Shown: piece after piece, positions 47,237 to 63,293 of the stretch
Layout of the letters: every line of letters begins with the position of its first letter
How positions within the stretch are numbered: the first letter of the stretch is position 1
DNA from: Colwellia sp. PAMC 20917
Lineage (GTDB): Bacteria > Pseudomonadota > Gammaproteobacteria > Enterobacterales > Alteromonadaceae
Length of the DNA stretch: 64,000 bases
Direction: 5' to 3'
Assembly: GCF_001767295.1 (NCBI RefSeq)
Contig: NZ_CP014944.1
Span: 1,178,001-1,242,000, forward strand
The notes under the pieces: model-generated
Database searches by the model: none
The model's input: only the letters and a program-made list of their open reading frames with translations
What the model was told of the DNA's origin: nothing
Translations under genes and position numbers: made by a program

Positions 47237-47257
47237 TTTTCTCGACAGGTTCGATAA
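46796..47257 (+). CDS. tnpA: IS200-type Y1 transposase TnpA
   Basis: I start this gene at GTG 46796, which gives 153 residues: VEYQTNSHCKHIIALHLILV, then the HUH pair in VDKDHIHILLIISP and the catalytic Tyr in TIRKYIKEK near residue 127. TnpA cuts and joins single-stranded element ends at the hairpins. The C-terminus runs through the right hairpin, adding about 20 non-typical residues. It is divergent from tnpB, with the two starts about 40 bases apart. The catalytic residues are intact. Confidence 0.88.
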   Translation: MEYQTNSHCKHIIALHLILVVKYRKQLLFGDMGEFVKQAVLDISDSSDFSVEEIEVDKDHIHILLIISPRYAIGQHVRRIKQQTNKLIWKRYPSLKKQFWIENTFWSDGYFVCSVGNASVDTIRKYIKEKDSLSIHPRDFRFARITGFSRQVR

Positions 47258-47977: not shown

Positions 47978-48556
47978 TTATTTGATGGTACTTAACTGCT
48001 GGTATAAATCGACAAACTTTACACGCTTGCGATAACCTTCAAAAAAGTATTTATAATCGATAGTCCCTGCGGGGTTAATAATCACAACACCAGGATAAGG
48101 AATACCATAATTATCATCGCCCATTTGGTAATCTTTATTAAGAATACCATAGGCTTTTACCGTCGCCGCCGCTTGATCTGACAACAAAGGATAGGTTAAT
48201 TGATGCGCCTTAGAGAAACCGTTTAAGATGTCAGTACTGTCATAAGAAATAGCCGCAACACCGTAACCTAACGCTTTAAATTTATCAGCATATTCATTGA
48301 ATTCAATTAAGTGGCGTTTACAAAAGGGACACCAGTCAGCTGAACGAAAAAATAAGATGATCAATCCTTTTTCAGCGGTTAAGTCCGCAATGTTAACCAC
48401 TGATTTTTTTACATCTGTTACTGTTAAAGCCGGTGCTTTATCACCCACTTTAGGCCCAACGTTTATTGAAGTCTGCTCGGCAAAAGCGTTGTTAATAAAA
48501 AGCATCGAGAAAAGCAAACTGACAATGACCGCTATATATTTTTTGTTATGAACCAT
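47978..48556 (-). CDS. Exported peroxiredoxin / thioredoxin-like protein
   Basis: This 192-residue protein has a signal peptide (VIVSLLFSMLFINNAFAEQ) and an AhpC/TSA-type domain. It has PKVGDKAPALTVTD, then GLIILFFRSADWCPFCKRHL (CPFC active site), YPLLSDQAAATVKAYGI and YPGVVIINPAGTI. It is a periplasmic peroxide or disulphide-handling redoxin. The CPFC pair makes both thioredoxin-like and peroxiredoxin-like action possible. It is a single gene 100 bp after the amidase gene on the same strand. Confidence 0.82.
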   Translation of the reverse strand: MVHNKKYIAVIVSLLFSMLFINNAFAEQTSINVGPKVGDKAPALTVTDVKKSVVNIADLTAEKGLIILFFRSADWCPFCKRHLIEFNEYADKFKALGYGVAAISYDSTDILNGFSKAHQLTYPLLSDQAAATVKAYGILNKDYQMGDDNYGIPYPGVVIINPAGTIDYKYFFEGYRKRVKFVDLYQQLSTIK

Positions 48557-48660: not shown

Positions 48661-50196
48661 TTACTGTAGTTTTGGCGCAACGCGATGTTGAGTCGCTTGT
48701 TCATAACCAAAAGCAGCTTCAATCAAGATACCTTCTTGTAACTTGCCGGAAAACATTGATAAGCCAACAGGTAAGCCATGTACATAGCCCATAGGTAGTG
48801 TAATATGAGGGTAACCTGATATTGCCGCAGCAGAAGATGCAGCACCTAAATAATGGTCGCCATTAACCCAATCAATTTTCCACGCGGGTCCTGTAGTTGG
48901 GGCAATAATCATATCAAGATTGTGCTTTTCAAGTAACGCATCAATACCTGCTTGTTGTGTTAAACGTTTCGCTTTAGCGAGTGCATCAAGATAAACTTTA
49001 TCAGTAATGTCCCCTTTAGCTTGTGCCATCAAAAATATTTCTTGTCCAAAATATTTCATTTCAACATCAGCATTTATTTTATTGAATTCAATCATTTCAC
49101 TGAGTGATTTTGGCATGCCTGGTGCTGTTTTTGAAAGATACTTATTGAGCTCGTCTTTAAATTCATAAAGCAGCACTTCAAATTCAGCATCGCCCCACTG
49201 ATCTTTGTTTTCAAAATTAACGTCGTCTACGATCACTGCACCTTGGCTTTTAAGGTCTTGTACTGCCTGACTAAAAACATTGTCTAGCCCTTGATGATAA
49301 CCCATTAGATTTCGAGCAATACCGATACGCTTACCTTTAAGACCATCAAGCTTTAAATGTGAGAGGTAATCTATCGTTGAAGACATTACATCTTGATCAC
49401 TTGGGTCTGCTTTTACCATTGCCGCTAACAAAATAACCGCATCGGTTACATTCCTCGCCATAGGACCCGCTGTATCTTGGCTATGCGCAATAGGGATAAT
49501 ACCGTCGCGGCTAACGGTACCTAAGGTTGGTTTTATTCCAACAACACCATTAATTGCCGCTGGACAAGTCACTGAACCATCAGTTTCAGTACCAATTGTT
49601 ACCGTAGCAAAGTGAGCCGCTGCAGCAATACCAGAACCTGAACTAGAGCCACAAGGACTAGTTGTTATATCGTAAGGGTTTTTACTTTGTCCATATAAAC
49701 CGCTCCAACCACTTGATGAAGCAGTTGAGCGAAAGTTTGCCCATTCACTTAGATTGGTTTTTCCTAAGATAATCGCACCAGCTTCTTTGAGTTGCTTAAC
49801 CAAAAAAGCATCATCATCTGGAAAATTATTGGCTAAAGCAGTTGAACCTGCTGTGTTTGCCATACCATCAGTAGTATCTATATTGTCTTTAAGTAGAATA
49901 GGAATACCATGCAAGCTGCCTTTAAAGCCATTTTTAAGGAAATAAAGGTCAAGTGCTTTAGCTTGCTTGAGGGCATTTTTATTTAATTGCACCACTGAAT
50001 TTAGCGTCATTCCTTTGTCATCATATGTCGCAATGCGTTTTAAATAGAATTGCACCAATTGTTCGCTAGTTAATTGTTTACTTTGCATTTGCTGATGAAT
50101 GTCGTTAATGGTGGTATTTTCATTAATATCGGCACGAACATTAAAAGCCATTACCGAGCAAAAAAATAATAAAGCTAACGGTTGAAAAATTTTCAT
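48661..50196 (-). CDS. Exported amidase (amidase signature family)
   Basis: This ~511-residue protein has a signal peptide (LALLFFCSVMAFNVRA). I start at the ATG with AGGA 8 bases upstream; an ATG nine codons earlier lacks one. The amidase signature is complete: the catalytic Lys in HGIPILLKDNIDT, the Gly/Ser-rich CGSSSGSGIAAAA and the nucleophilic Ser in TETDGSVTCPAAINGVVGIKPT. It hydrolyses amide bonds in the periplasm; the substrate is unknown (peptide amides, aryl amides and others are possible). It follows the glucan-locus transporter gene by 170 bp but is separated from it by a terminator. Confidence 0.9.
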   Translation of the reverse strand: MKIFQPLALLFFCSVMAFNVRADINENTTINDIHQQMQSKQLTSEQLVQFYLKRIATYDDKGMTLNSVVQLNKNALKQAKALDLYFLKNGFKGSLHGIPILLKDNIDTTDGMANTAGSTALANNFPDDDAFLVKQLKEAGAIILGKTNLSEWANFRSTASSSGWSGLYGQSKNPYDITTSPCGSSSGSGIAAAAHFATVTIGTETDGSVTCPAAINGVVGIKPTLGTVSRDGIIPIAHSQDTAGPMARNVTDAVILLAAMVKADPSDQDVMSSTIDYLSHLKLDGLKGKRIGIARNLMGYHQGLDNVFSQAVQDLKSQGAVIVDDVNFENKDQWGDAEFEVLLYEFKDELNKYLSKTAPGMPKSLSEMIEFNKINADVEMKYFGQEIFLMAQAKGDITDKVYLDALAKAKRLTQQAGIDALLEKHNLDMIIAPTTGPAWKIDWVNGDHYLGAASSAAAISGYPHITLPMGYVHGLPVGLSMFSGKLQEGILIEAAFGYEQATQHRVAPKLQ

Positions 50197-50311
50197 CTTA
50201 ATTCCTAAAGTATAACGTTGCACATTTTATAATTTAAATTGGGGGCACTTGTCTATAGAGGGCTAATAATTAAACGAAAAGAATCTTTAATTGCTGTTAT
50301 TAAATCGATAC

Positions 50312-50366: not shown

Positions 50367-51779
50367 TTAAGCTTTTGAATGTTCCTGTACTTTCGTCCAA
50401 GCCAACGCTGAAATTGCGAGTGCAATAGCACTAATTTGAAAAACTACACTTTTATCGGCAACTTTACTGATGAATAAACCAATAGCTAAGCTAACCAACA
50501 ACTGCGGTAATACAACAGACAAGTTGAATAGGCCCATATATAGGCCCATACGAGACTGTTCAACCTTTTCAGACATAATGGCAAACGGTAAACTAATAAT
50601 AGCAGACCAACCAATTCCTAATAGCGCCATAAGTAAGTAAAGCACTTCTTTTACATCTCCAAACATGACGACTAATCCATAGCCAACGGCCATACTGGCA
50701 ATGCAATAGGTATGGGTTTTTACTCGTCCTATTTTTTTAGCGATCGGTTCAAGCACAAATGCCGGTAATAAAGCAGACACTGCACTTAAAATGAGAAAAC
50801 TCATCGCGATAACTTTGCCTAAATCATCGTCTGACAAACTTGGCATTTTGTCTTGAAGAAAAGCAATAATAAAAACAAACATCGTTTGTACGCCAATCCA
50901 ACTGAAGGAATGAGCGGCTAATACTTTTCTAAAACCAATGCTATTATCACTGCGACTCTCTTTTGCAAATAAAGTAATAACAACAAAATACAAGGTAATG
51001 ATTGCCGCAATAACTTCAGCCCAGTAATGATCGGTTTTTATACCTGATATTTGTAAAGCCATCGCATAAATATCGTAAATAATGAAGCCCCACAAGGGTT
51101 TTATATTCATCAATACCATTGTAAACGAGACTTTCTCTTGAACAACATCGCGTTGACTTACTAATAATTCTTTGGGCTCGCTAATAAAAAAAGGTGCTAA
51201 TATTGATAGAAAAAACACTAATCCTGCGCCTAAATAAATAAGTATAAAGTTCCCCCACGTAGCACCAACCGCATAAGCCAATACACCAAAAGAGCCTGAT
51301 ACCGTTTGCATCCAGGTATAACCTTTAGTGCGAGCATCACCTTCAGGGGTTACATCCGCGATAATGGCACGTGTTGGATTAAAACTAATATTTATCGATA
51401 AATCTAAGGTTAACGCAACAGCAATCGCTACACCGAGCAATCCTGAGATACCAAGTGATGAAGAGACAATATCAATATTGGGTAAAGCCAATAACATCAT
51501 AGCGGCTAACACACCACCGATGAGGATAAACGGACGTCGACGGCCATTCCAAAACCAAACATTATCGCTAATAATACCAACAATAACTTGTCCTAAAATC
51601 CCCGCAATCGGTCCTGCGGCCCACACTAAGCCAACCTGATGAATATCAAGACCGTATTGAGTAGTTAATATCCAACTAAGCGCTGATATCTGTACTGATA
51701 AAGCAAACCCCATCGCTGTCGCGGGTAAGCTCAATAGCATGTAGAAAGATTTACTAAGGTTTTTTTGAATGGCCAACAT
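50367..51779 (-). CDS. MFS sugar transporter (SLC45/maltose-sucrose type)
   Basis: This 470-residue protein has 12 predicted membrane segments. It begins LSLPATAMGFALSVQISALSWILTTQ and has VGLVWAAGPIAGILGQVIVGIISD, NGRRRPFILIGG and YTWMQTVSGSFG, which match the glycoside MFS/SLC45 group used for maltose and sucrose uptake in Alteromonadales and Sphingomonads. It should import maltose or maltodextrin across the inner membrane. It is the last gene of a minus-strand operon behind a TonB receptor, a halogenase, an ASPIC/UnbV lipoprotein and a haloperoxidase-like lipoprotein; a terminator follows. Confidence 0.85.
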   Translation of the reverse strand: MLAIQKNLSKSFYMLLSLPATAMGFALSVQISALSWILTTQYGLDIHQVGLVWAAGPIAGILGQVIVGIISDNVWFWNGRRRPFILIGGVLAAMMLLALPNIDIVSSSLGISGLLGVAIAVALTLDLSINISFNPTRAIIADVTPEGDARTKGYTWMQTVSGSFGVLAYAVGATWGNFILIYLGAGLVFFLSILAPFFISEPKELLVSQRDVVQEKVSFTMVLMNIKPLWGFIIYDIYAMALQISGIKTDHYWAEVIAAIITLYFVVITLFAKESRSDNSIGFRKVLAAHSFSWIGVQTMFVFIIAFLQDKMPSLSDDDLGKVIAMSFLILSAVSALLPAFVLEPIAKKIGRVKTHTYCIASMAVGYGLVVMFGDVKEVLYLLMALLGIGWSAIISLPFAIMSEKVEQSRMGLYMGLFNLSVVLPQLLVSLAIGLFISKVADKSVVFQISAIALAISALAWTKVQEHSKA

Positions 51780-51821
51780 TTTTTATTATTCTCTTTTTAT
51801 TATTTGCAGTCGCATTAAAGG

Positions 51822-53819
51822 TTATTGATTAAAATAGTCTTGTACAAATTCAAAACTATTTTTACCTATTTTCTCACCAATTAAGCGACCGGTAATATCA
51901 TCGGCAGGTGGATGAATACCTCCCCAAATACGTGACAGACTACATTGATCAGAAGCATCTTGATAAGTCGCCCATTGCAGGGTCATATTGACACTTGGCC
52001 CTTGTTCAAAAACTAAAAACTCATTGGCAACCACGTCAAATTGGCTCATTCCACCAGGAAAGAATCGCGAACCTGTCATTGCGGTCATTAATTCGGCAGC
52101 GGCTCTAGAATAAGTCGAATGCCCAGATACATAACCGGCAAAAGGTGGGGTTACAAAAGAAGGACGCTGATAAGGCCACCAATTCTCAGCTAAAATCCAA
52201 TCAACACCGGCTTTATCAGTAGCGGGGTTGTTAATGTAATCGGGACCTTTCCAGCCATAAATTTTAATTTTTCCGAAATTTTGCTTATTATCCCCTGCTA
52301 GTGCATCGTTCGCTCCAACAAGTTCGATGTAACCATCAACAAGAAGAATTCCGTTAAGGTGATAAGAAGGTAATTGCTCATCGCTACTTTGTCCTAGGTC
52401 AGCCATTGCACGAATGGCTGAAACAGGTCGAATATAATCGTAGCGCCCCTTAATCCCCCAAGCTGCGATTGCCGCGTCATGCATAGTGCCCCCCATGGCA
52501 AAATAGCTTTTTATATCCCATTCTAAATGACCTAATATTTCGCCAGTACCCGCCCAACGTTTTTCAAGTAAATTATGGTCGCTAACGGTATTTAGGATGA
52601 CAAACCAGTGACCCGGCGGTGTTTCAGATTCAGGACCGTCTGCCCAGAATTCGGCGAGTACTCGGCCATAGTCACCACGAGGCACTATCTGCTCTTGGTA
52701 AGGTTGGTTAGTTACTGGGTTAAGGGTATAACCGGCACTAGTATCTCCACCGTCAAGTTGATTATAAAACTCATTATATTGAGAAAAAGTTGTTGGAAAG
52801 CTATTAATGTTACCGATACTTTTTGGCGATATATCCCATTCAACACCATCGTTCTCATCTAAATGAGCTGACCATATCGCGACTAACGAAAAGCCCCACT
52901 TATATAAATCTGCTGTATCTGAACCTATTAACGGCGGCATCCCTGGATCATGGTAAACCTGATAGTCAAATCCATCACGGGTAAAAACAGTTTTGTCATT
53001 TGCAGATAAAGAAAATGGAACAACTTGTCCCCATTCTGGGCTTAGAAATTCAGGCATATCGTCAACCGGGTTTCCTGCTTGATCAATATATCCCTGAATA
53101 GAAAGGGGTTGCCAGCGATTTAAGTCAACGATAGTCGGGTTACCCGACTGGCCAGCTCCCAAAGCTAACGCAGGGTTAACCGATTGGTAATGGCGGTTAC
53201 TGTAAAATTGTTGTTCGTTAGCGCCATCTTGTAAACCAAAGTTGATATAGCATTGGGCAATAGCATTACCAAGTGCTGCAGCTGAACCATTAACATAGTC
53301 GACAGAAGTATCATCGACATCAAAGCCTAAGCGCGTCATTAAAGCATCGGCTGTGGCAATAATATTATTGGCTCCAGGTGATAAGCGAAAACGATGTTTG
53401 ATCATTTTATAACTGGCGAAACTTATCGCTTGCTCTTGAAAAGGGATAATGTCGATTGGCAAATCAACGGCTTGTGCAAGACAGTTAAACCCAGCAACAT
53501 TATTGCCCCATAAAAAAGGCTTCACTTGTGGGCGATAAACAGACCAAGCGTCGAACATTGCTGATGAAATATGAAATAAATTTCGAGCATGTACTGTAGG
53601 GCGCGCATAGTCATTTCGTATTGCATGCAGTAAAACTTCATTCCACTGTCTTGCAACTGACTGTCCACTTCGCTCAGGTGTTATTGTTATTGGCGCGGCA
53701 ACAATCACTTCATTTTTACTGCTTGAACTTGAACCACCACAAGCCGTTAATAATAATGGGCTTAACATGAGTGGCAGGATAATATTTTTTACTATTTTCA
53801 TTTTGCTCGGCTTAATCAT
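51822..53819 (-). CDS. Vanadium-haloperoxidase/PAP2-fold lipoprotein
   Basis: This 665-residue secreted lipoprotein has lipobox LLTAC followed by GGSSSSS. It contains all three parts of the vanadium haloperoxidase/acid phosphatase active site: K-x6-RP (residues 457-465, KGRYDYIRP), SGHS (565-568) and SRxxxGxHxxxD (about 629-640, SRIWGGIHPPAD). Vanadium haloperoxidases oxidise halides with H2O2, while PAP2 phosphatases share the same site, so the reaction cannot be fixed from sequence. The length and the ~450-residue N-terminal extension fit the long secreted vHPO-related group in marine bacteria. It lies 42 bp before the sugar transporter gene and 78 bp after the CRTAC1-like gene in the same operon. 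An internal ATG six codons in is an alternative start. Confidence 0.83.
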   Translation of the reverse strand: MIKPSKMKIVKNIILPLMLSPLLLTACGGSSSSSKNEVIVAAPITITPERSGQSVARQWNEVLLHAIRNDYARPTVHARNLFHISSAMFDAWSVYRPQVKPFLWGNNVAGFNCLAQAVDLPIDIIPFQEQAISFASYKMIKHRFRLSPGANNIIATADALMTRLGFDVDDTSVDYVNGSAAALGNAIAQCYINFGLQDGANEQQFYSNRHYQSVNPALALGAGQSGNPTIVDLNRWQPLSIQGYIDQAGNPVDDMPEFLSPEWGQVVPFSLSANDKTVFTRDGFDYQVYHDPGMPPLIGSDTADLYKWGFSLVAIWSAHLDENDGVEWDISPKSIGNINSFPTTFSQYNEFYNQLDGGDTSAGYTLNPVTNQPYQEQIVPRGDYGRVLAEFWADGPESETPPGHWFVILNTVSDHNLLEKRWAGTGEILGHLEWDIKSYFAMGGTMHDAAIAAWGIKGRYDYIRPVSAIRAMADLGQSSDEQLPSYHLNGILLVDGYIELVGANDALAGDNKQNFGKIKIYGWKGPDYINNPATDKAGVDWILAENWWPYQRPSFVTPPFAGYVSGHSTYSRAAAELMTAMTGSRFFPGGMSQFDVVANEFLVFEQGPSVNMTLQWATYQDASDQCSLSRIWGGIHPPADDITGRLIGEKIGKNSFEFVQDYFNQ

Positions 53820-53897
53820 AAGGTCTACTTATTATTTTTATACTTATTTTGATTCTAACAATTATTGGCTCGCGACTAAATAATTAGTCAATAGCGC

Positions 53898-55622
53898 CTA
53901 AATACGCTCGATAGTTACAAATTTATTGACCGCTACTTGAGTGATCACTGACTCTTCGCCATCAGGCCACACTACACGTATATGGGTTATTATTGACGAC
54001 TTACCTAAACCAAAGTGTGCTTCAACCGGGTTTTGTGAGACATAATTTGTTCCTGATTTTAATTCCCGCATTTGACGAATATCACCACTACTGACATATA
54101 TCCTTGCCCCTAATGCCTGAGAATTACTGGTTGCATCAACCAATTTGATATTGATAAAGTTATTCTGCCCCGTTTTACTGCCGCCATTATTACAAAACAA
54201 CTTAGGTGGCTCATCATGGTTAGCAATATAAATATCTTGATCACCGTCTTTGTCATAATCAAAACATACTAAGCCTCGCCCCATCGACTTGTCATCAATA
54301 CCGACATCGATGGATGACTCTTTAAAAGTACCATCGCCATTAGCAAGAAAGAGTCGAGAAGGATCGTCTAAAAACATTTTTTCAATATTTTCGCCATACA
54401 TACCATTAACAACAAATAAATCTTGTAAACCATCGTTATTAAAATCACTAAAACAAGTCGCCCATGCCCAAGAGCTATGACGAACACCAAGCTCGTCTGT
54501 TTTATCAAGAAAAGTGCCATCGCCCTGATTCTGATAAAAGCGATTGCCTGGAGACAGCCAACCTAACTTTGCCGGTTCGTCTCGATAAGATATTGCGCTA
54601 ACAAACCAGTCTAAGTCGCCATCATTGTCGTAGTCAGCTACTGCTGAGCCCATGCCGGTATTATCTGTTATCACTTCATGGTCAGTGATATCGGTAAACG
54701 TGCCATCTTTATTGTTTTTGTAAAGACGGGTTTGCGCATAATCTGTCACTAAGAGTAGGTCGACCCAACCATCGTTATTAATATCAGAGAATGTTGCGGT
54801 TAAGGTTTTATCGGCATTACTGGTATTTTTTATACCGGCTTCAAAGGTGACATCTGAAAAGGTTGAATCGCCATTATTCCGCCAAAAATAGGCAAAGTAA
54901 CCGCTACGTTCTTCGGTCCAATGAGTAACAAACAAATCAAGGTCACCATCTTTATCGTAGTCAGCCCAAGTGCCTGAAAAATTATTACCCGGCAGTACCA
55001 GACCTGAGCTTTCAGTAATGTCTAGGTATTGTTCATTTCCTTGATTAACATAAAGCTTTGCCGCATCGCCACCGACACCACCAACAAATAAATCTAATAA
55101 GCCGTCACCATTAAAATCACCAAAAGCAGGACCACTGCCTTTATTTTTTTGAGCAACACCTGAAAAGCTAGCTCGGTCAGTAAAGGTACCATCACCTTGA
55201 TTTTTTAATAAAACATTGGCTTGCCCTTCACCACCTATCGCGTATAAATCTACCCAGCCATCATTGTCAAAATCACCTGCCGCCACACCACCAGACATAC
55301 CTAATACGCCATCACCATCGGGCATTGAATGGCTAAAGGTAATACCCGCTTGTTGAGAGATTTCCGAAAACTGTAATGATTGCGCACTATTTTCAACGCC
55401 ATGGCACTGATGACTAGCGCTGCCAATGGCAGCCAGCTCGGTAACCTTTGCAGCAATACCCGCAACTTGTGGCCCAATTAAAACAGGTGCTTCAACACCT
55501 GTTTTCTCAACAGGCTTATCGTTACTCGCGCTTCCACCACCACAACCTGATAGCGCAGTAAGTGTGAAACTTAATAAGAAAAAGAAGGGGAAAGCGTAAA
55601 GTGATGATCGCGTGTTTTTCAT
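53898..55622 (-). CDS. CRTAC1-like ASPIC/UnbV and FG-GAP repeat lipoprotein
   Basis: This ~574-residue lipoprotein has lipobox LSGC. I start at the ATG with AGG about 9 bases upstream. The body has six to seven VCBS/FG-GAP calcium-binding repeats with the pattern DFNGDGLLDLFVGG, DYDKDGDLDLFVTH or DYDNDGDLDWFVSA, forming a beta-propeller. The C-terminal ASPIC/UnbV domain (YVSSGDIRQMRELKSGTNYVSQ...HFGLGKSSIITHIRVVWPDGE) is the hallmark of CRTAC1 relatives. It is anchored outside the inner membrane, with unknown ligand or substrate. It is 5-20 bp from the halogenase gene and 78 bp from the haloperoxidase-like gene, so they are one operon. Confidence 0.88.
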   Translation of the reverse strand: MKNTRSSLYAFPFFFLLSFTLTALSGCGGGSASNDKPVEKTGVEAPVLIGPQVAGIAAKVTELAAIGSASHQCHGVENSAQSLQFSEISQQAGITFSHSMPDGDGVLGMSGGVAAGDFDNDGWVDLYAIGGEGQANVLLKNQGDGTFTDRASFSGVAQKNKGSGPAFGDFNGDGLLDLFVGGVGGDAAKLYVNQGNEQYLDITESSGLVLPGNNFSGTWADYDKDGDLDLFVTHWTEERSGYFAYFWRNNGDSTFSDVTFEAGIKNTSNADKTLTATFSDINNDGWVDLLLVTDYAQTRLYKNNKDGTFTDITDHEVITDNTGMGSAVADYDNDGDLDWFVSAISYRDEPAKLGWLSPGNRFYQNQGDGTFLDKTDELGVRHSSWAWATCFSDFNNDGLQDLFVVNGMYGENIEKMFLDDPSRLFLANGDGTFKESSIDVGIDDKSMGRGLVCFDYDKDGDQDIYIANHDEPPKLFCNNGGSKTGQNNFINIKLVDATSNSQALGARIYVSSGDIRQMRELKSGTNYVSQNPVEAHFGLGKSSIITHIRVVWPDGEESVITQVAVNKFVTIERI

Positions 55623-55642
55623 TTGAATACCTATCAATAACT

Positions 55643-57232
55643 TTATTTATTAATGAGCTTGTCATTAATAAACTGTTGGTGATCAGCAAAATTTACTGAA
55701 CAGCGTTGAATAAACTGGTCTATATGCGCTAAGTCATATTTATGTGCGGCATCAAGAGCCTGCTCGCCAAATTTTTCGGCGAGTCGTTTGTCTTGTGACA
55801 ACTCAGGAAAAATACCGTAACCGGCAAGCATAGCATGCCAAGAAACTGGTGGGTAAAAACTCACCATACCTGGTTGAATTAGGGCTTTGTTTAAATCATC
55901 ACCCGCGACCCAGCACTGTACTATTTTCTTTAAATTGTTAGATATATTGGGATTTATGCTATTTTTTCGCCAGTACTCGGTGTCGTCACGCGAACTTAAG
56001 CGATAATGAGCGACAATATAATCGCGAATGCCATCAAAACGATGATTCATTTTTTCATTAAATCTATCTTGATAAATATTGCTGTATTCACCGAGAGAAA
56101 AATCATCAATAAAACCTTCAATACTCTCTTGGACAAAATGTAAAGCGGTCGCTTCAAGGGGCTCAATAAAGCCTTGCGACAAGCCAATAGCGACACAGTT
56201 TTTGTGCCAATGTTGTTTAACTCGCCCTACTTTCATTTTTAAGTGACGAACGTCAATGGCTTCATCGACCAATGAAAGTTTTTCTCGTAACTCAAGCTCT
56301 GCTTGTTCGCCAGTGCAGTGCTTCGAACTATAAACATAGCCATTTCCAGTGCGGTTAGTTAGCGGAATATCCCACGCCCAACCACATTTCATCGCAGTAG
56401 CAATAGTTTGTGAGTTAAGACCTTGCTGAGCGTTTTCATCTCTTGCTACAGAGATGGTCACAGCACTGTCATTAAATAAGTTATCTTTAAAACTGATAAA
56501 AGGTACTTTTAATGTTTTTTGTAAAAGTAGGCTGTTAAAACCTGAGCAATCAACAAAAAAATCACCGGCAATGACCTCGCCGTTATCAAGTGTTAACGAT
56601 TGAATGTCGCCAGCATCATTTACGTTTACCTCATCAACTTGCGCCAAAATATGCTTAACACCTTTTTTCTGCGCAACTTTTCCTAAAAACTTCCCCAATA
56701 AAATGGCATCAAAGTGATAGCCATAGCCAATATCGAAAGGAAAATTATATTCGCCAACCGCAGATTTTTTTTGTTTAGCTAATTGTGCAGACAAAAAGAA
56801 ACGATCGGGATGACAATCGACGTTAAAGCCTTTGCGACGATACTGAGTGTTATAGACAAAGGCAGGAGCCGTATGGGCATCGATAAGCGAAGTAAAAGGA
56901 TGAAAATAACTTTCAAAACCTACTCGTGTTGACCAGCCATTGAATAATATGCCATTTTTATAGGTCGCATTGCATTGCGGCATCCATTCTTGTTCGGTGA
57001 CACCTATTTTATCAAAGAAGCTTTTTAATTGTGGTGTAGAGCCTTCACCAACACCAATAACACCAAGCGAAGGAGATTCAATTAATGTTATTGAAACGGG
57101 GTGGTTTTGCCACTTTTCAACCATTAAATTAGCGGTCATCCAACCTGCAGTACCACCACCTAAAATCACCATGTTAAGTTTTTTTGGGGAAGTGCTTTGT
57201 GCTGTTTTATCTGGGCAGGCTGAATTTATCAT
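55643..57232 (-). CDS. Flavin-dependent (tryptophan-type) halogenase
   Basis: This 529-residue FAD protein has the dinucleotide motif GGGTAGW (residues 25-31), the halogenase signature WxWxIP (275-280, GWAWDIP), a catalytic-Lys candidate K92 in TYKNGILF and the Glu site in GFIEPLEATALHF (E347 or E350, equivalent to PrnA E346). The protein is cytoplasmic. Such enzymes use FADH2, O2 and halide to make HOX that halogenates tryptophan or another aromatic. A TonB receptor gene lies just upstream and a CRTAC1-like gene just downstream in one operon. Halogenases of this type are often found next to TonB receptors in Alteromonadales and Xanthomonadales, where their substrate is unknown. The active site looks intact. 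Confidence 0.88.
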   Translation of the reverse strand: MINSACPDKTAQSTSPKKLNMVILGGGTAGWMTANLMVEKWQNHPVSITLIESPSLGVIGVGEGSTPQLKSFFDKIGVTEQEWMPQCNATYKNGILFNGWSTRVGFESYFHPFTSLIDAHTAPAFVYNTQYRRKGFNVDCHPDRFFLSAQLAKQKKSAVGEYNFPFDIGYGYHFDAILLGKFLGKVAQKKGVKHILAQVDEVNVNDAGDIQSLTLDNGEVIAGDFFVDCSGFNSLLLQKTLKVPFISFKDNLFNDSAVTISVARDENAQQGLNSQTIATAMKCGWAWDIPLTNRTGNGYVYSSKHCTGEQAELELREKLSLVDEAIDVRHLKMKVGRVKQHWHKNCVAIGLSQGFIEPLEATALHFVQESIEGFIDDFSLGEYSNIYQDRFNEKMNHRFDGIRDYIVAHYRLSSRDDTEYWRKNSINPNISNNLKKIVQCWVAGDDLNKALIQPGMVSFYPPVSWHAMLAGYGIFPELSQDKRLAEKFGEQALDAAHKYDLAHIDQFIQRCSVNFADHQQFINDKLINK

Positions 57233-57275
57233 TAATTTTTACTGCTTAAAAAATTACCATGACTATCGACAAATA

Positions 57276-57305
57276 AAAAAGGTGTGGTTTCAACCACACC
57301 TTTTT
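57276..57305 (-). terminator. Terminator between the TonB receptor and halogenase genes
   Basis: AAAAAGGTGTGGTT and its complement AACCACACCTTTTT form a 14-base stem with a 2-base loop, 10 bases past the receptor stop on the minus strand. It likely sets the ratio of receptor to downstream operon transcripts. Confidence 0.85.
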
Positions 57306-57315
57306 AAGTTTTCAT

Positions 57316-60300
57316 TTACATTGAATAATTAATACCAAAGTAAACCGTGCGACCAAAGTACTGAATTGTTCCGGTACGTGAAGTATCACCAAAGTAAGAA
57401 ATATTCGGTTCGTCTGTTAAGTTATCAACAGAAACGACTCCTTGTAGATTCTCAGTAAAGTTATACGACATTTGTGCAGAAATAATCGTTTCTTCTTGGA
57501 AATACGCTGATTGTGAATCACCGATCGCAATTTGACGACTCAAGTATTCTGCGCGATGACGCGCACTAACACGTGCGGTGAACAAATCTTCGTAATCATA
57601 AAAAAGTGTTGCACTAAATACGCGCGGTGATAAACCTTCGATTGGACCTGGCTGACCATCTTCACCTGGTACATTTGACGGACGTTCGATTTCACTTTCG
57701 GTGTAAGAAAAATTGATGTTAGCGCCTAAGCCTTTCCACATATCAGGTAAAAAGGTAAAAGTTTGCGTATATCCAATTTCAATACCACGAATATAACCCG
57801 CCTCTGCGTTATTAGCGGCGTGTGAATAAGTGCCATTTTCCCAAACGAGTGGTTCGCCAATGGGCTCCCCTGTTTCGCTATCGTACTCAGCATGCGTCTT
57901 GTCGTCAGGTATTGCTGGTACAGCAATACCATTAGCCTGATAATCAAAATTCTTATCTGTGGTTGTACCTGGCATGTTTTCAATGTCTTTGTTCCAAATA
58001 GCAAAAACAAACGCGCCATCGGTTTCAGAGAAATAATGCTCATAAGAAATATCAATTTGATCTGCATAAAACGGACGTATTGATGGGCTAGTTGAACTGT
58101 CTAAATCAATATAGTTTCGACCGTCATCCGCTGAATTAAATCTAAAGTTACCGCTGTTAGCCATTGATGGCATATCTGGACGTGACATAACTTTTGAGTA
58201 AGCAAAACGTAATTGGTCGTCTTCAGATAATTGAATATTCAAATTTAAAGATGGTAATAAATCATTATAACTTTCGCTGACTGTTTCACGGCGGAATTCG
58301 TCGCTTGTACCGCCAACATCATCATAAATTACATCACCATTACCCGCTCCCACATTGACTAAACCTGTGCTGCTTTGTTTAGAGCCAACATAGCGAAGAC
58401 CTACATTGCCGCTTAACGGTAAACCAAACAGTTCAGCGTTTAGGTTTAATTGCACGTAAGCTGCGGTAACTTCTTCTTCAACAATATTATTTTGAGTCAT
58501 TGTCCAGCTATGATTCCAGTCACGTACTGGCGTACGATCAACATTTGGGATCCAAGCATTTAAAATATCGTTGTTGTTAACCGCTAAGAAACTCGGCATA
58601 CCCGGTAAGTCACCGTTAATACTTGTTACTGTGGAGTTTTCATTGGATAATGGAAAAGGAGCAAAACGTTCTGTTTCTATCGGGTTACCTTCTTCATCGG
58701 TACCTGCATAAGTGATGTATTGACCATTACGCATATTTGCGTCGGTAGTACCATATAAGAAACGACCACGGCCCAATTCATATTCACGCTCCGATAAACG
58801 GGCACCAAATTCAACTGAACTAAAGATGTCACTTTCAAGTTGGTAAGCGAAATCAACACGTACAGCATTTGATTCATTTGACTCGATACTTGGATACGAC
58901 TCTGCACTGGTTACCATCATGTGGTCGGTATCGGTAAAGTCTTGGTTAAAGGCTAAATCAGGGTTTTCTAAGCCATTAAGTTTATAGCTAAAGATGATGT
59001 CGTTATCAATAATAGGGGTTGCTGCGCTAGAGTCTTTAAAATAAGCCATACGCATAACTTGATCTTTGCTGGTCTCTTTACCTTGAGAATGGGCAAAATC
59101 AACGGTCATTAATAAATCATCATTAATTTCCCATTCACCCTTTAAACCAAATGAGCTTAATTCACTGTTGGTCGTATTATCATCGGCTTGTGTTTGAATA
59201 TTTAAGCTACGATCAGAACCTTTATAAGGTGGCGCAATGGCATCACCATTAGGATTACGAGCAATGGTACCACCGATAAGTGCGCCGTTAGCAATAAGCG
59301 GATCGGTTAAGAGTAAAGACTGTCCTGGGCTGGCAATGTTGTTTATGCCTGATATACGTAAACCACGATCCCATTTTTCTGAGTCAAACTTTGAATGAAA
59401 ACCATCAAATTGGAAACGTAAATCATCACGAGGTTCCCAATTTAACGCCAAAACAAAAGCATCACGACTATCTTCACCACCACGTTCATTAACTTCAAAG
59501 CCAGATGAAACTAATAGACTTTCTGGACCGCCATCATATGTTTCTGATAAATCTCGGTCGTCAAATTGATAGTTTACGAAACGGCTCGACACAGTAGGCT
59601 GAAACATACCGGCGTAACCCAATGAAAGACCAAGCGTGTCATCTAAGAATTTTGCTTGATAAGAAGCGGTTAAGCGGCGACCAAAATCAGCAGAATCTTC
59701 ATTGCCAGCAGCGGCATCATTCCAATTTCCGTGAGCAGAAAAACGAAAGCTAGTTTCTTTTTCATTATCTAGTGCATTAGCGGTTTCTAGTTCAATAGTA
59801 CCAGCAATACCGCCTTCTATAAGCGACGCTTTTTGTGATTTATACACTTGCGCTTGCTTAATTAATTCTGAAGGAAATTGATCAAACTGAACTGAGCGTC
59901 CACCTGCTGTTGAAACTTGTTCACGACCATTCAATGTCGAAAATACAAAGCCACCTGATAAACCACGAATATTCAGCTCGCTTGATTGGCCATCGATTCG
60001 TACTGAGGTAACACCTGGCAAGCGTGTTAAAGAGTCGGCTATAGATACATCGGGTAAACCGCCAATGTCGTCAGCTGATATCGCATCAACGACAGTGTCT
60101 GAAAAACGTTTAGTGTTTAAAGACTTAATAATACTGCCTCTAAAACCTCTAACTTCAATAACTTCTACTGCATTTTCTTTTTCTTCTAATGTTTTTGGTT
60201 TGTTAACGTTAACAGTTTGCGCTTTTACTTCTTCTTGAGCATCTTGAGCAAAACTGGGAACACTAGCAAATGATAAACCCGCAGCTATTAAGCTGAGTGT

Positions 60301-60327
60301 TAATATATTTGGCTTGAATTTGTTCAT
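57316..60327 (-). CDS. TonB-dependent receptor, alpha-glucan uptake type
   Basis: This 1003-residue outer-membrane receptor has a signal peptide ending SFAQ and a TonB-box-like VEVIEVRGFRGSI (residues ~54-66). The plug domain spans about residues 70-190 (VVDAISADDIGGLPDVSIADSLTRLPGVTSVRIDG, IRGLSGGFVFSTLNGRE). A ~800-residue 22-strand barrel follows, ending YFGINYSM with terminal aromatic Met. The TIGR01782-style long receptor of Xanthomonas and Caulobacter is typical for oligosaccharide uptake. It is probably the maltodextrin or starch-oligomer importer of this locus. It heads the halogenase operon and is divergent from a lipoprotein gene that carries a LacI-type operator. Confidence 0.88.
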   Translation of the reverse strand: MNKFKPNILTLSLIAAGLSFASVPSFAQDAQEEVKAQTVNVNKPKTLEEKENAVEVIEVRGFRGSIIKSLNTKRFSDTVVDAISADDIGGLPDVSIADSLTRLPGVTSVRIDGQSSELNIRGLSGGFVFSTLNGREQVSTAGGRSVQFDQFPSELIKQAQVYKSQKASLIEGGIAGTIELETANALDNEKETSFRFSAHGNWNDAAAGNEDSADFGRRLTASYQAKFLDDTLGLSLGYAGMFQPTVSSRFVNYQFDDRDLSETYDGGPESLLVSSGFEVNERGGEDSRDAFVLALNWEPRDDLRFQFDGFHSKFDSEKWDRGLRISGINNIASPGQSLLLTDPLIANGALIGGTIARNPNGDAIAPPYKGSDRSLNIQTQADDNTTNSELSSFGLKGEWEINDDLLMTVDFAHSQGKETSKDQVMRMAYFKDSSAATPIIDNDIIFSYKLNGLENPDLAFNQDFTDTDHMMVTSAESYPSIESNESNAVRVDFAYQLESDIFSSVEFGARLSEREYELGRGRFLYGTTDANMRNGQYITYAGTDEEGNPIETERFAPFPLSNENSTVTSINGDLPGMPSFLAVNNNDILNAWIPNVDRTPVRDWNHSWTMTQNNIVEEEVTAAYVQLNLNAELFGLPLSGNVGLRYVGSKQSSTGLVNVGAGNGDVIYDDVGGTSDEFRRETVSESYNDLLPSLNLNIQLSEDDQLRFAYSKVMSRPDMPSMANSGNFRFNSADDGRNYIDLDSSTSPSIRPFYADQIDISYEHYFSETDGAFVFAIWNKDIENMPGTTTDKNFDYQANGIAVPAIPDDKTHAEYDSETGEPIGEPLVWENGTYSHAANNAEAGYIRGIEIGYTQTFTFLPDMWKGLGANINFSYTESEIERPSNVPGEDGQPGPIEGLSPRVFSATLFYDYEDLFTARVSARHRAEYLSRQIAIGDSQSAYFQEETIISAQMSYNFTENLQGVVSVDNLTDEPNISYFGDTSRTGTIQYFGRTVYFGINYSM

Positions 60328-60881
60328 TGTTTCATATTCCTAATAATATGTATTATCGAGAAGCCCCTACTTACACTTGCACTATGGTTGATAACGCACA
60401 GCGAGTTGGAGTCAATTATTTTTATGAGATATTCCCTATCTATTTATGTTTCAAGATTTACGGTGACAACTTCATAGTAATCATTTTTTACACAGTTACA
60501 ACCGATTACCCATCAGTGAACTTTAGTAATAAGATGGTTTTAGAAAGCAAGCAAACTCGTTATTTCCTTTGATTACATAACCTTAAAAAATGAAAGTCAG
60601 AATAAAAGCAGATTACTGCAAGTCTTTGAATACGTATTCATAACATCAGCATTAGGTTTTATAGTCAACGCGGCATAACATCGTTCCCCAGTGAAAGGAT
60701 GATGAAATTAGATTCAACATAACCTGAAGCTACTTTTTAATGGATGATTAAGACCGTTTTTTGATTACGTGACAGTAACAATATAAAGCAATAACAATTA
60801 TTAAAATAAAAACAACGTACTAAGTTTGCTATATACATAACGGCTTAGCACCTTATCAACATTTAAGTGGAGATGTCATTT
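60328..60881. other. Divergent regulatory region of the glucan locus
   Basis: This region lies between the divergent TonB receptor gene and the plus-strand lipoprotein gene. It contains the perfect palindrome TGAATACGTATTCA at 60627-60640, about 240 bp before the lipoprotein start and 300 bp before the receptor start, so one operator could control both. I see no other frame or repeat. Confidence 0.55.
60627..60640. promoter_or_regulatory. LacI-family (MalR-like) operator
   Basis: TGAATACGTATTCA is a perfect palindrome with a central CG step, the shape of LacI-family operators, in the promoter region of the glucan genes. A similar imperfect copy precedes the pullulanase-type gene at 63162-63177. 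The binding regulator (MalR-like) is inferred and not in the window. Confidence 0.6.
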
Positions 60882-63020
60882 ATGACTGGTTATATGAAAC
60901 AATTATCGTTTGCTACGTTAGCCGTATTGGTTAGTGTATTAGCAGGCTGTGGAGGAAGTGATGAAAGTAATGCTGTTACTGAATCCCCTCTTTGGTGTAA
61001 GTCACCAGAAACAATTAACGAAATGGGTAATGCATGTGAATTAGTTATTACCCCCTGTAATTACCCTGAAGTTGCCAACCCTGATACTCAACTTTGTGAA
61101 ATGAGCAAAGAGGCATGGATTGATGGCTCTAACGGTATCACTATGCCCGTGCCAGCTTACACACCAGCGGCAAACGAATTAGTTATTTATTTTCAATTTG
61201 AAACACCAACGGATGGCAGTGCGATAGATTATAACCTTGCCGGTTTACACGCTTGGAATAACGCTGACTGTAACTCCTATGCAGATTTTGATCGTCCTGA
61301 AGGGACCACACCTTGGGGCTCTTCATTAGCGTGGACAGGTATTGATGATAATTTTGGCGCCTATTGGGTAATGAATACTATCGATCCACCTAATTGTATT
61401 AACTTTATTGTTTACGATGCTATTGGTTCAGTTAAATTTTCAGGTGAAGATGATATTCTTGTTGATATAAGCACAGTTAATACCGGTGAATTATTCTTAC
61501 TAGAAAAAGAAACCACTATATTTCCGTTCCCACGAACGTTTGCCTCTTTAGTTGTTCCTGGTGGCTCAACACCAGCACCTTTAGAGTGTGAAGCGCCACT
61601 TATTGCTAATGAAGCGGGTGACGAGTGTGTAACCGACCCTAATGCAGTGCCAACTATTGTTGATGGCGCAGCTGAACTTTATTTACGCGGCCTCATTGAC
61701 TGGGAAACCACAGACGACAGCAATAAATTTGTTTACTCTGAAGGTGTCTACACCATGGCACTAGCCGTTACAGGCTCAGCGACAGCTTATAATTTCAAAG
61801 TTGCTGATGCAGATTGGAATGTTATCAATGCCTTTGGCGCAAGTGAAGGTGATGAAACAGTCGTTCTTGGCGAAAGTAAAACATTGATTGCCAGTGAAGA
61901 GCTAGGTAAAAACATTAGCCTTACCATTCCTAACAACGGTAACTACCAGTTCATTTTAGATATTTCAGATACTGAAGCACCAACGTTAACTGTTATTGAA
62001 GTTGCTTATGACAAAGTACTTTATGTTAAAGGCGACATGAACGAATGGGCTAATGCCCTTCCTATGGTATATAAGGGTGAAAATATCTACACCTCTTTAC
62101 ATCCATTAGAAATGCAAGACTATGCCTTTAAAGTGGCTGATGCTAACTGGACTGATGAGACTAATTTCGGTATTGCCACCGAAGGTGCCGTTGTGCCACT
62201 TGATACCGCCACCACATTAGTTTTTGGTGAAAATGTTGCTCAAAACATTAATTTCACTGCCGCTGCAGCGGGTACTTATCGATTTATACTTGATGCCACC
62301 AATAAAGGTGCCCCAATATTAACAATTGAGAATGCAGTACCTTATTCAGGTCGCACTTTGTATTTAAAAGGTGACATGAACGATTGGTCAACAACACCTA
62401 ACTTTGACTTTGCACTTACCGACACCACTTACGTGGTAAATGCATTGATTGATAACACTAAAAAGTATGGCTTTAAAATAGCGTCAGATGGCTGGGAAAA
62501 CGATTCTACTATGGGTGCTTTTGCTGGCGAAGGTGATATTGTTATCGGTGAAGAAAAATTATTAACCTTACCGGGTGAAGATAATATTGCCATTGAAGTG
62601 ACTGAAAATAAAATATTAACCTTCACTTTAGATGCGACTGATTTCACCGCGCCTAAATTAACAGTAACCGAAGCGCCTGCCCCTTACCAAGAACGTACTA
62701 TGTACCTTAAAGGCGATATGAATGGATGGGCTACCGAAGAAGCTTATATACTAACTTATGCTGCAGGTATTTATACAATAGAAACGTTATTACCCGTTCG
62801 TAGCTATAATTTTAAAATTGCCTCTGCTGATTGGGAAGAAGACTCTACAGTTGGCGGTGTTGTTGATGATAATATCTTAACCGCCGGTGAAGCAAAAACC
62901 TTAACATTACCCGGTGCTGATATTACTTTTGATGTAACTAAAGAAGCGACTTATGTCTTTACATTGAACGCAATTAACCCATCAAGACCTATGTTAACGA
63001 TTACTGAGAAAACCAACTAA
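60882..63020 (+). CDS. Alpha-glucan-binding-type lipoprotein with PUD and four repeats
   Basis: This ~712-residue lipoprotein (VLVSVLAGCGG lipobox) starts at ATG 60882 with GGAG 9 bases upstream. After a Cys-rich linker it has a PUD/pullulanase-associated domain (NELVIYFQFETPTDGSAIDYNLAGLHAWNN, PPNCINFIVYDA). Four repeats of about 105 residues follow, each with LYLKGDMNxW and YNFKIASADWEEDST-type strands, at about residues 265, 372, 478 and 590. They resemble SusE-like starch-binding or CBM modules. It is an outer-membrane surface glucan-binding protein by context, paired with the divergent TonB receptor. A pullulanase-type gene follows on the same strand, 273 bp away. Confidence 0.8.
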   Translation: MTGYMKQLSFATLAVLVSVLAGCGGSDESNAVTESPLWCKSPETINEMGNACELVITPCNYPEVANPDTQLCEMSKEAWIDGSNGITMPVPAYTPAANELVIYFQFETPTDGSAIDYNLAGLHAWNNADCNSYADFDRPEGTTPWGSSLAWTGIDDNFGAYWVMNTIDPPNCINFIVYDAIGSVKFSGEDDILVDISTVNTGELFLLEKETTIFPFPRTFASLVVPGGSTPAPLECEAPLIANEAGDECVTDPNAVPTIVDGAAELYLRGLIDWETTDDSNKFVYSEGVYTMALAVTGSATAYNFKVADADWNVINAFGASEGDETVVLGESKTLIASEELGKNISLTIPNNGNYQFILDISDTEAPTLTVIEVAYDKVLYVKGDMNEWANALPMVYKGENIYTSLHPLEMQDYAFKVADANWTDETNFGIATEGAVVPLDTATTLVFGENVAQNINFTAAAAGTYRFILDATNKGAPILTIENAVPYSGRTLYLKGDMNDWSTTPNFDFALTDTTYVVNALIDNTKKYGFKIASDGWENDSTMGAFAGEGDIVIGEEKLLTLPGEDNIAIEVTENKILTFTLDATDFTAPKLTVTEAPAPYQERTMYLKGDMNGWATEEAYILTYAAGIYTIETLLPVRSYNFKIASADWEEDSTVGGVVDDNILTAGEAKTLTLPGADITFDVTKEATYVFTLNAINPSRPMLTITEKTN

Positions 63021-63161: not shown

Positions 63162-63177
63162 TTGAATACGTATGTAA
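63162..63177. promoter_or_regulatory. Second LacI-family (MalR-like) operator
   Basis: TTGAATACGTATGTAA shares TGAATACGTAT with the perfect palindrome at 60627; the right half has mismatches. It lies 117 bp before the pullulanase-type gene. A shared upstream GTCTT supports a common regulator. Confidence 0.5.
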
Positions 63178-63293
63178 TGGCTATTCATTAACCAGTCGAC
63201 TCTTTAGTATGAAGGAATAATTAAAAATAATATTTATCTAGTGTAGCTCAAATGTACAACAGATAAATATTGCATAAACCTAAGAGTGATAAG

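Follow-up and report, generated by a model that had tools for sequence, protein, structure and literature searches.

Sus-type starch uptake combines a TonB receptor with lipoproteins and with parts of GH97, GH13 and SusG_CBM58 type (GH, glycoside hydrolase family). Halogenation genes of marine bacteria are as a rule assigned to natural products, competition or detoxification. The maltodextrin regulon of Shewanella, in the parts of its description drawn on here, is governed by the LacI-type regulator MalR and includes the TonB receptor OmpMal, amylases, SusB and sugar permeases (PMC2996990). Transcripts of rebH/prnA type assigned to Colwellia sp. MT41 increased in the presence of dispersant or oil, for which the authors of that study suggest competition (PMC11337851). 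The subject here is a five-gene minus-strand run in Colwellia sp. PAMC 20917 (contig NZ_CP014944.1, positions 1,178,001 to 1,242,000; this whole 64,000-nucleotide stretch is called the window), which codes for a TonB-dependent receptor, a flavin-dependent halogenase (FDH), a CRTAC1-like lipoprotein, a vanadium-haloperoxidase-like (VHPO) lipoprotein and a sugar transporter (Table 1).

It is somewhat probable, in our judgement, that this run is an alpha-glucan operon with a LacI-type (MalR-like) operator, that it joins a CRTAC1-VHPO module to a receptor-FDH pair common in the family, and that hypohalite is made during feeding. The link between halogenation and starch uptake looks functional because these genes appear to share a switch with uptake genes and because CRTAC1 and VHPO are recurrently fused. 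One enzyme from each of two main halogenation classes would here be wired to glucan feeding.

An earlier note, made from the letters of the window alone, had listed these genes. Its five open reading frames (ORFs) stand where it placed them, and Pfam and NCBIfam models agree with its naming of the TonB receptor, FDH, CRTAC1-like and VHPO-like proteins. Its SLC45-like label for the transporter holds as kinship; the protein is termed merely SLC45/GPH-related because the sucrose/proton symporter model TIGR01301 scores 63.6 bits, far under the cut-off of 511.

Operator sites and the alpha-glucan setting

The exact palindrome TGAATACGTATTCA upstream of the operon has two sites in the genome, a single contig of 4.68 Mb, and the other one precedes a GH13 amylase gene. 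A second operator-like site in the window, TGAATACGTATGTA, precedes a pullulanase gene whose start is near window position 63270 and which extends beyond the window end. Widened to TRMATACGTATKYA, the palindrome has 8 sites in the 4.68-Mb genome and its reversed control pattern has 0. Each of the 8 is found some 60-300 bases upstream of a gene for alpha-glucan use or sugar transport: this operon together with the divergent PUD gene, two pullulanases, a GH97 gene, a GH13 amylase, a second SLC45-like gene, and a phosphorylase-GlgB-amylase run that has two sites and a divergent LacI gene as neighbour. The widened pattern was written with five of the eight sites in view, which leaves three independent ones: before a pullulanase, before GH97, and the second one before the phosphorylase operon.

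The LacI-family gene (L122:7970-9013) adjoins two of the TRMATACGTATKYA sites, and its product is taken, putatively and by position, to be the regulator. An operator common to alpha-glucan genes with an adjoining LacI-family gene is the pattern of a MalR-type regulon. In four related loci (L017, L022, L025, L076) the palindrome precedes the receptor gene with no or one mismatch. The alpha-glucan setting assumed in the earlier note is thus well supported, both by the operator sites and by the divergent lipoprotein gene with PUD and SusG_CBM58-type domains.

These and the following loci (L labels), many of them fragments of metagenome-assembled genomes (MAGs), were chosen by similarity to the VHPO, FDH or CRTAC1 of the window, and counts among them describe its kin and not bacteria at large. 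A separate set of 147 genomes overlaps the named loci (L103 and L017 carry the same genes), and the two kinds of count are not additive.

The vanadium-haloperoxidase-like protein

Strong relatives of the VHPO occur in 11 of the 147 genomes, its own included, with weak partial matches only in G023 and G048. A search of genome contigs gave at least 579 relatives, with 80 loci kept, and the alignment holds 88 rows, in which at least two loci are present twice. The closest kin by VHPO sequence is the Colwellia MAG DT_21, and identity to Bacteroidota kin is still about 60%. All seven vanadate-binding residues (K457, R464, S565, G566, H567, R630 and H636) are found in 88 of 88 rows, as is the aspartate of SRX5HX3D; W454 (K-3) and F560 (S-5) are kept in at least 97%. 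The motif spacing that we assume for vanadium chloroperoxidase (VCPO) places W454 and F560 at VCPO Trp350 and Phe397, and the two are likely equivalents on the strength of that spacing and, for the phenylalanine, also of the alignment to bacterial iodoperoxidase 4cit, which the VHPO profile follows through TPPF..Y.SGH. In VCPO these two residues are the proposed halide site, according to the part of the source used here (PMC9144378).

The predicted VHPO structure (predicted local distance difference test, pLDDT, 85.2; predicted template modelling score, pTM, 0.87) has a haloperoxidase fold over its full length (TMt 0.76 and TMq 0.54 to NapH1). Its 18 Foldseek matches in the PDB at E<=0.001 are all haloperoxidases or homologues, the best at E 5.7e-18. 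The family is strongly conserved and apparently uncharacterised so far.

The earlier note had also listed PAP2-type phosphate release. A PAP2-type acid phosphatase, freeing phosphate from phosphorylated glucans or other esters, would accord with the active-site residues that acid phosphatases and haloperoxidases have in common, as given in part of the same source (PMC9144378), and with the title of entry 3bb0, by which apo-VCPO can dephosphorylate. The fold disfavours it, as phosphatases appear only at E 0.36 and above, set against full-length haloperoxidase matches down to the value just given, and the likely halide-site residues are kept. On the predicted model, acid phosphatase identity was marked down and appears very unlikely.

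Somewhat better placed, although still unlikely, is a non-halogenating member of the fold, either a NapH3-like rearrangement enzyme or a binding protein, acting with CRTAC1 on sugars or small molecules. NapH3, titled a homologue catalysing an alpha-hydroxyketone rearrangement, is among the top fold matches; the CRTAC1 model resembles glycan-binding lectins and aldos-2-ulose dehydratase (8% identity); and an aldo/keto reductase gene lies 3' of VHPO in L022 and L025 and 3' of FDH in L104. However, NapH3 aligns SGF where the 88 VHPO rows have SGH, and the VCPO-type tryptophan and phenylalanine persist in at least 97% of them.

The flavin-dependent halogenase and TonB receptors

The FDH matches 5lv9, a thermophilic tryptophan halogenase, best in the PDB (E 4.2e-99), and also 2pyx and 6frl, which we take to be a Shewanella halogenase and BrvH. 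K92, W285, W287 and E360 are kept in 35 of 35 aligned rows and P290 in 33; presumably K92 and E360 are the catalytic lysine and glutamate, and the WxWxIP motif is that of tryptophan halogenases. No signal peptide was seen in the FDH, which is taken to be cytoplasmic.

The FDH family is present in 93 of the 147 genomes, its own included, often in multiple copies, and the Colwellia genome has two further, adjacent FDH genes 3' of another TonB receptor (G000:C1:3138784-3141744, L121). The 18 best-scoring places (L103-L120) hold 19 FDH genes above 500 bits. Nine of the 19 lie directly 3' of a same-strand TonB receptor, and 18 have a receptor in the same stretch, none being found in L114. In 9 of the 18 loci a copy of the palindrome with at most one mismatch lies no more than 700 bases upstream of the receptor (L105 had only 66 bases available), and the reversed palindrome shows at least three mismatches in every FDH locus tested. 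Judging by these sequences, the family commonly has an intact FDH behind a glucan-type receptor, and the window is not special in this respect.

The earlier note had called two halogenation enzymes in a sugar operon unexpected. Half of that surprise is ordinary, because the family often has FDH with a TonB receptor but no VHPO. Joint presence of the two enzymes as such is rare: an FDH was present in the analysed stretch of only 5 of the 80 VHPO loci, so that FDH and VHPO as an obligatory pair were rejected. No biosynthetic cluster was seen around the window FDH.

CRTAC1 as the shared part

The CRTAC1-like protein has the makeup of its family, an FG-GAP propeller and then an ASPIC/UnbV domain. 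It matches murine CRTAC1 (9etn) both by profile (E 3.5e-40) and by predicted model (pLDDT 86.7; E 2.6e-27), and further model matches are fungal lectins that bind N-acetylglucosamine (GlcNAc) and the dehydratase mentioned above. CRTAC1 and VHPO form a single protein in 33 of the 80 loci and are neighbours in another 15 (9 on the same strand, 6 on opposite strands). Trees were quick ones. That of 86 VHPO rows needs three changes for the fused state, a single clade of fused rows is rejected (p-AU 1.8e-5), and fused Flavobacteria rows (L080, L086, L091, L093) group away from the gammaproteobacterial ones; one gain followed by splits may be an alternative history.

CRTAC1 matches of at least 280 bits fill 16 places in 11 of the 147 genomes, the Colwellia genome included, and all 16 adjoin VHPO or a TonB receptor. 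Nine are beside VHPO or one gene off (L125). The other seven (L144-L150) have a TonB receptor adjacent or in the same gene run and no VHPO in the stretch, L148 being a 6 kb contig too short to judge VHPO presence. The order receptor-FDH-CRTAC1 occurs without VHPO in the stretch in L144 and L145, the latter beside GH20. Because the strong places adjoin VHPO or a receptor, twice as receptor-FDH-CRTAC1, CRTAC1 emerges as the hub, the part common to both halogenation enzymes. In the FDH tree, CRTAC1-linked FDHs need four changes, three of them forced by well-supported branches, with gains and losses indistinguishable. The strongest links are those of CRTAC1 with VHPO and with the TonB receptor, which the earlier note had not singled out, and the operon reads as a merger of modules, receptor-FDH and CRTAC1-VHPO.

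Some CRTAC1-VHPO proteins are very long, at 1759-1879 aa (L050:3365-8644, L053:6626-11908, L044:6191-11830). In L050 and L053 the CRTAC1 match covers nearly 1000 residues, as though present twice; the assignment of L050 to Dehalococcoidia is doubtful, this locus being near-identical to L053 from a proteobacterial bin.

Gene neighbourhoods in relatives

The earlier note had proposed a survey of co-occurrence, with lack of linkage in other genomes as a ground for refutation. Outside the window, the whole five-gene set recurs at just one of the 80 VHPO loci, L017, and parts of it are found in L022, L025 and L076, so that this ground for refutation applies in part. L022 has the FDH and lacks the transporter in its run. 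L025 has a PUD-type gene, receptor, CRTAC1, VHPO, aldo/keto reductase and transporter, without FDH. L076, from a Cellvibrionales MAG, has in a row a receptor, a fused CRTAC1-VHPO, GH97, GH13, GH43, an esterase and an SLC45-like gene, and its palindrome before the receptor has one mismatch. VHPO, CRTAC1 and a GH13 amylase occur together in L026. L030 and L031 have VHPO-CRTAC1 between GH20, amidohydrolase, SIS, BadF-type kinase and MFS genes and an opposite-strand FDH-receptor; this GH20 gene set is read as GlcNAc use.

These neighbourhoods bear on the idea that VHPO and FDH are passengers, brought by horizontal transfer into a sugar operon with no common task. The single further complete set and the restriction of strong VHPO matches to 11 genomes speak for it. 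Yet the operon has an alpha-glucan-type operator, a distant fused relative stands in the GH97/GH13/SLC45-like run of L076 behind its own one-mismatch palindrome, and CRTAC1-VHPO recurs at the GH20/GlcNAc-type locus. Chance co-location was marked down on the operator and the fused relative, and passengers of this kind seem rather unlikely.

A TonB receptor lies within four genes of VHPO in at least 24 of 79 loci, counted with three home-made profiles, with L039 unplaced and no background rate. A Pfam tally over 137 of 148 same-strand VHPO neighbours gave TonB Plug 14, ASPIC 11, Aldedh 7, Trp_halogenase 5 and many singletons; therefore no single pathway emerges.

Other gene families also appear beside VHPO or FDH. 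At glucan-type loci, aldo/keto reductase genes lie 3' of VHPO (L022:11999-12919, L025:11966-12883) and, without VHPO, 3' of FDH (L104:10994-11914); none was seen among the window operon genes. Members of a protein family some 1150 aa long are encoded immediately upstream of VHPO in three loci (L018:6391-9834, L019:6427-9876, L021:6377-9826) and are separated from it by two genes in L020:4365-7817, the sole member scanned, which had no Pfam match at 1e-5. In the Bacteroidota loci L046, L051 and L067, some VHPO neighbours belong to the sulfatase, DUF1501 and PSD1/PSCyt clusters (one member per cluster scanned).

Export signals and proposed mechanism

The VHPO has the lipobox LTAC-GGSS and CRTAC1 has LSGC-GGGS, and none was seen on the FDH, in line with the split into exported and cytoplasmic proteins that the earlier note had drawn. 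A glycine after the lipoprotein cysteine marks an outer membrane destination, and VHPO, CRTAC1 and the PUD protein all have it. A simple lipobox pattern matches 37 of 53 VHPO ORFs of at most 900 aa and 21 of 29 unfused CRTAC1 ORFs; both sets contain some loci twice, and the VHPO set includes one truncated fusion. Some of these matches are doubtful, and several misses show, by eye, a signal-like stretch with a cysteine or an over-long predicted start. The Bacteroidota member L046 has a type IX (T9SS) sorting domain, narrowly above threshold at 27.7 bits against a cut-off of 27.

In the mechanism that we favour, the lipid-anchored, exported VHPO would carry vanadate and oxidise bromide, iodide or chloride from seawater with hydrogen peroxide (H2O2) at the outer membrane. 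An adaptor role is proposed for the CRTAC1 propeller, which would hold VHPO by the receptor or the glycan, and hypohalite would be released at the feeding site while the glucan is taken up; the cell surface or periplasm is proposed because VHPO and CRTAC1 bear lipoprotein signals. The most likely use would be local oxidative chemistry during feeding, in which H2O2 is removed and reactive halogen acts on competitors or on the particle being consumed. Halogenation of a glycan-linked aromatic and defence of the sugar resource by reactive halogen, both raised in the earlier note, would be candidate roles. A general role at sites of feeding is preferred to a glucan-specific reaction because the loci span alpha-glucan, GlcNAc-type and other settings. 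The FDH would be a separate cytoplasmic partner of TonB receptors.

Several points weigh against hypohalite formation tied to glucan feeding. The fold includes the non-halogenating NapH3, and 32 of the 80 VHPO loci have no nearby CRTAC1 (26 with 2.5 kb or more of flank on each side, 6 with less). No H2O2-making gene was noticed among the annotated genes, among which no search was aimed at such genes. An alpha-glucan gene was recognised at few of the 80 loci, whose neighbours are only partly annotated; glucan is therefore unlikely as the general substrate, and a glucan-specific VHPO substrate was rejected on this basis.

A bolder proposal, which we hold to be quite unlikely, makes CRTAC1-like propellers a general receptor or glycan adaptor that couples both halogenation classes to TonB sugar uptake, with the docked haloperoxidase attacking polysaccharide through hypobromite from H2O2 and seawater bromide. 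If true, such an attack would be a halide-mediated counterpart of H2O2-driven lytic monooxygenases. In the favoured mechanism, a working VHPO could make polymer uptake a regular marine source of reactive halogen, and bacterial CRTAC1 and the many receptor-linked flavin halogenases would then have testable roles.

Transcript and flanking genes

Gaps along the run, from receptor to transporter, are 83, 5, 78 and 42 bases, and the five genes are likely on a single predicted transcript. The CRTAC1 gene probably starts at an in-frame ATG 15 bases inside its ORF. Two features complicate a simple single transcript: a terminator-like hairpin between the receptor and FDH genes, and the amidase and peroxiredoxin-like genes that follow on the same strand. 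Terminator-like hairpins in the region number 12 against 11.2 expected. A hairpin 3' of the receptor was predicted in all seven other folded loci (L017, L022, L025, L104, L105, L107, L111), folded without a shuffled control; an eighth gap, in L076, has 11 bases only. The hairpin may damp the downstream genes or protect the receptor mRNA. The amidase and peroxiredoxin-like genes are possibly read through from the operon, and they also lie 3' of it in the closest relative (L017).

Table 1. Features of the operon and its surroundings, in window coordinates
Feature	Position	Strand	Remarks
Peroxiredoxin-like protein, signal-like N-terminus	47978..48556	-	AhpC-TSA; 104 bases beyond amidase gene
Amidase	48661..50223	-	PF01425; 143 bases beyond transporter gene
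MFS sugar transporter, GPH/SLC45-related	50367..51779	-	MFS_1 91.9 bits, MFS_2 41.1 bits
VHPO-like lipoprotein	51822..53819	-	VCPO_2nd and DUF6851 (PF22778, PF21167), 38.3 and 32.6 bits, cut-off 27 each
CRTAC1-like FG-GAP beta-propeller lipoprotein with ASPIC/UnbV domain	53898..55637	-	PF13517, PF07593
FDH, tryptophan-halogenase family	55643..57232	-	Trp_halogenase PF04820, 425.7 bits
Terminator-like hairpin, receptor/FDH gap	57276..57305	-	13-pair stem, loop of 4, T-rich tail; just 3' of receptor stop codon
TonB-dependent receptor, TonB-Xanth-Caul type, operon gene 1	57316..60327	-	TIGR01782, 562.7 bits (cut-off 310); Plug and beta-barrel Pfam domains
Operator palindrome TGAATACGTATTCA	60627..60640		Perfect palindrome; between operon and divergent PUD gene
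Divergent lipoprotein, PUD and SusG_CBM58-type domains	60867..63020	+	PF20756 35.4 bits, PF03714 31.9 bits, both above cut-off; lipobox LAGC-GGSD
Second operator-like site TGAATACGTATGTA	63163..63176		Precedes pullulanase gene L142:1271-5485

Elsewhere in the window (45532-47257), a TnpB-like gene on the minus strand overlaps a small, divergent Y1-transposase-like gene on the plus strand, by eye perhaps an IS200/IS605-type element.

Comparison with known systems

No open-access paper was found on VHPO together with CRTAC1 or ASPIC, nor one joining tryptophan halogenase to TonB-dependent receptors and maltose, or to a LacI regulon with TonB. This is weak evidence of absence, as most subscription papers lay outside the scope of the search. 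The regulon of the window resembles the Shewanella MalR regulon in its parts, a likeness of gene content, operator letters aside, as far as the portion of that description used here extends (PMC2996990). There, MalT is a MelB-like symporter, unlike the window transporter (the same portion of PMC2996990), and the main text on that regulon contains neither "halogenase" nor "haloperoxidase" (PMC2996990). The likeness to Sus-type systems lies in a TonB receptor with lipoproteins, GH97, GH13 and SusG_CBM58-type parts; in contrast to Sus, no SusD is present among the scanned window genes, and CRTAC1 and VHPO occupy adjoining places.

The window FDH differs from known tryptophan halogenases in its place 3' of a TonB receptor in sugar loci, with no biosynthetic cluster seen nearby. 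With murine CRTAC1 (9etn) the window protein has the FG-GAP propeller and ASPIC/UnbV domain in common, but it is a lipoprotein of bacteria, encoded next to TonB receptors and halogenation enzymes. Finally, the bacterial VHPOs (NapH1, 3w35; XhnO11, 9l8x; iodoperoxidase, 4cit/4usz) and fungal VCPO (1vnc) share with the window VHPO the same fold, the K..R..SGH..R..H site and the VCPO-type Trp and Phe. The window VHPO stands apart from them at 13-18% identity in structural alignments, as a lipoprotein that is fused to or paired with CRTAC1 and linked by its operator to sugar uptake.

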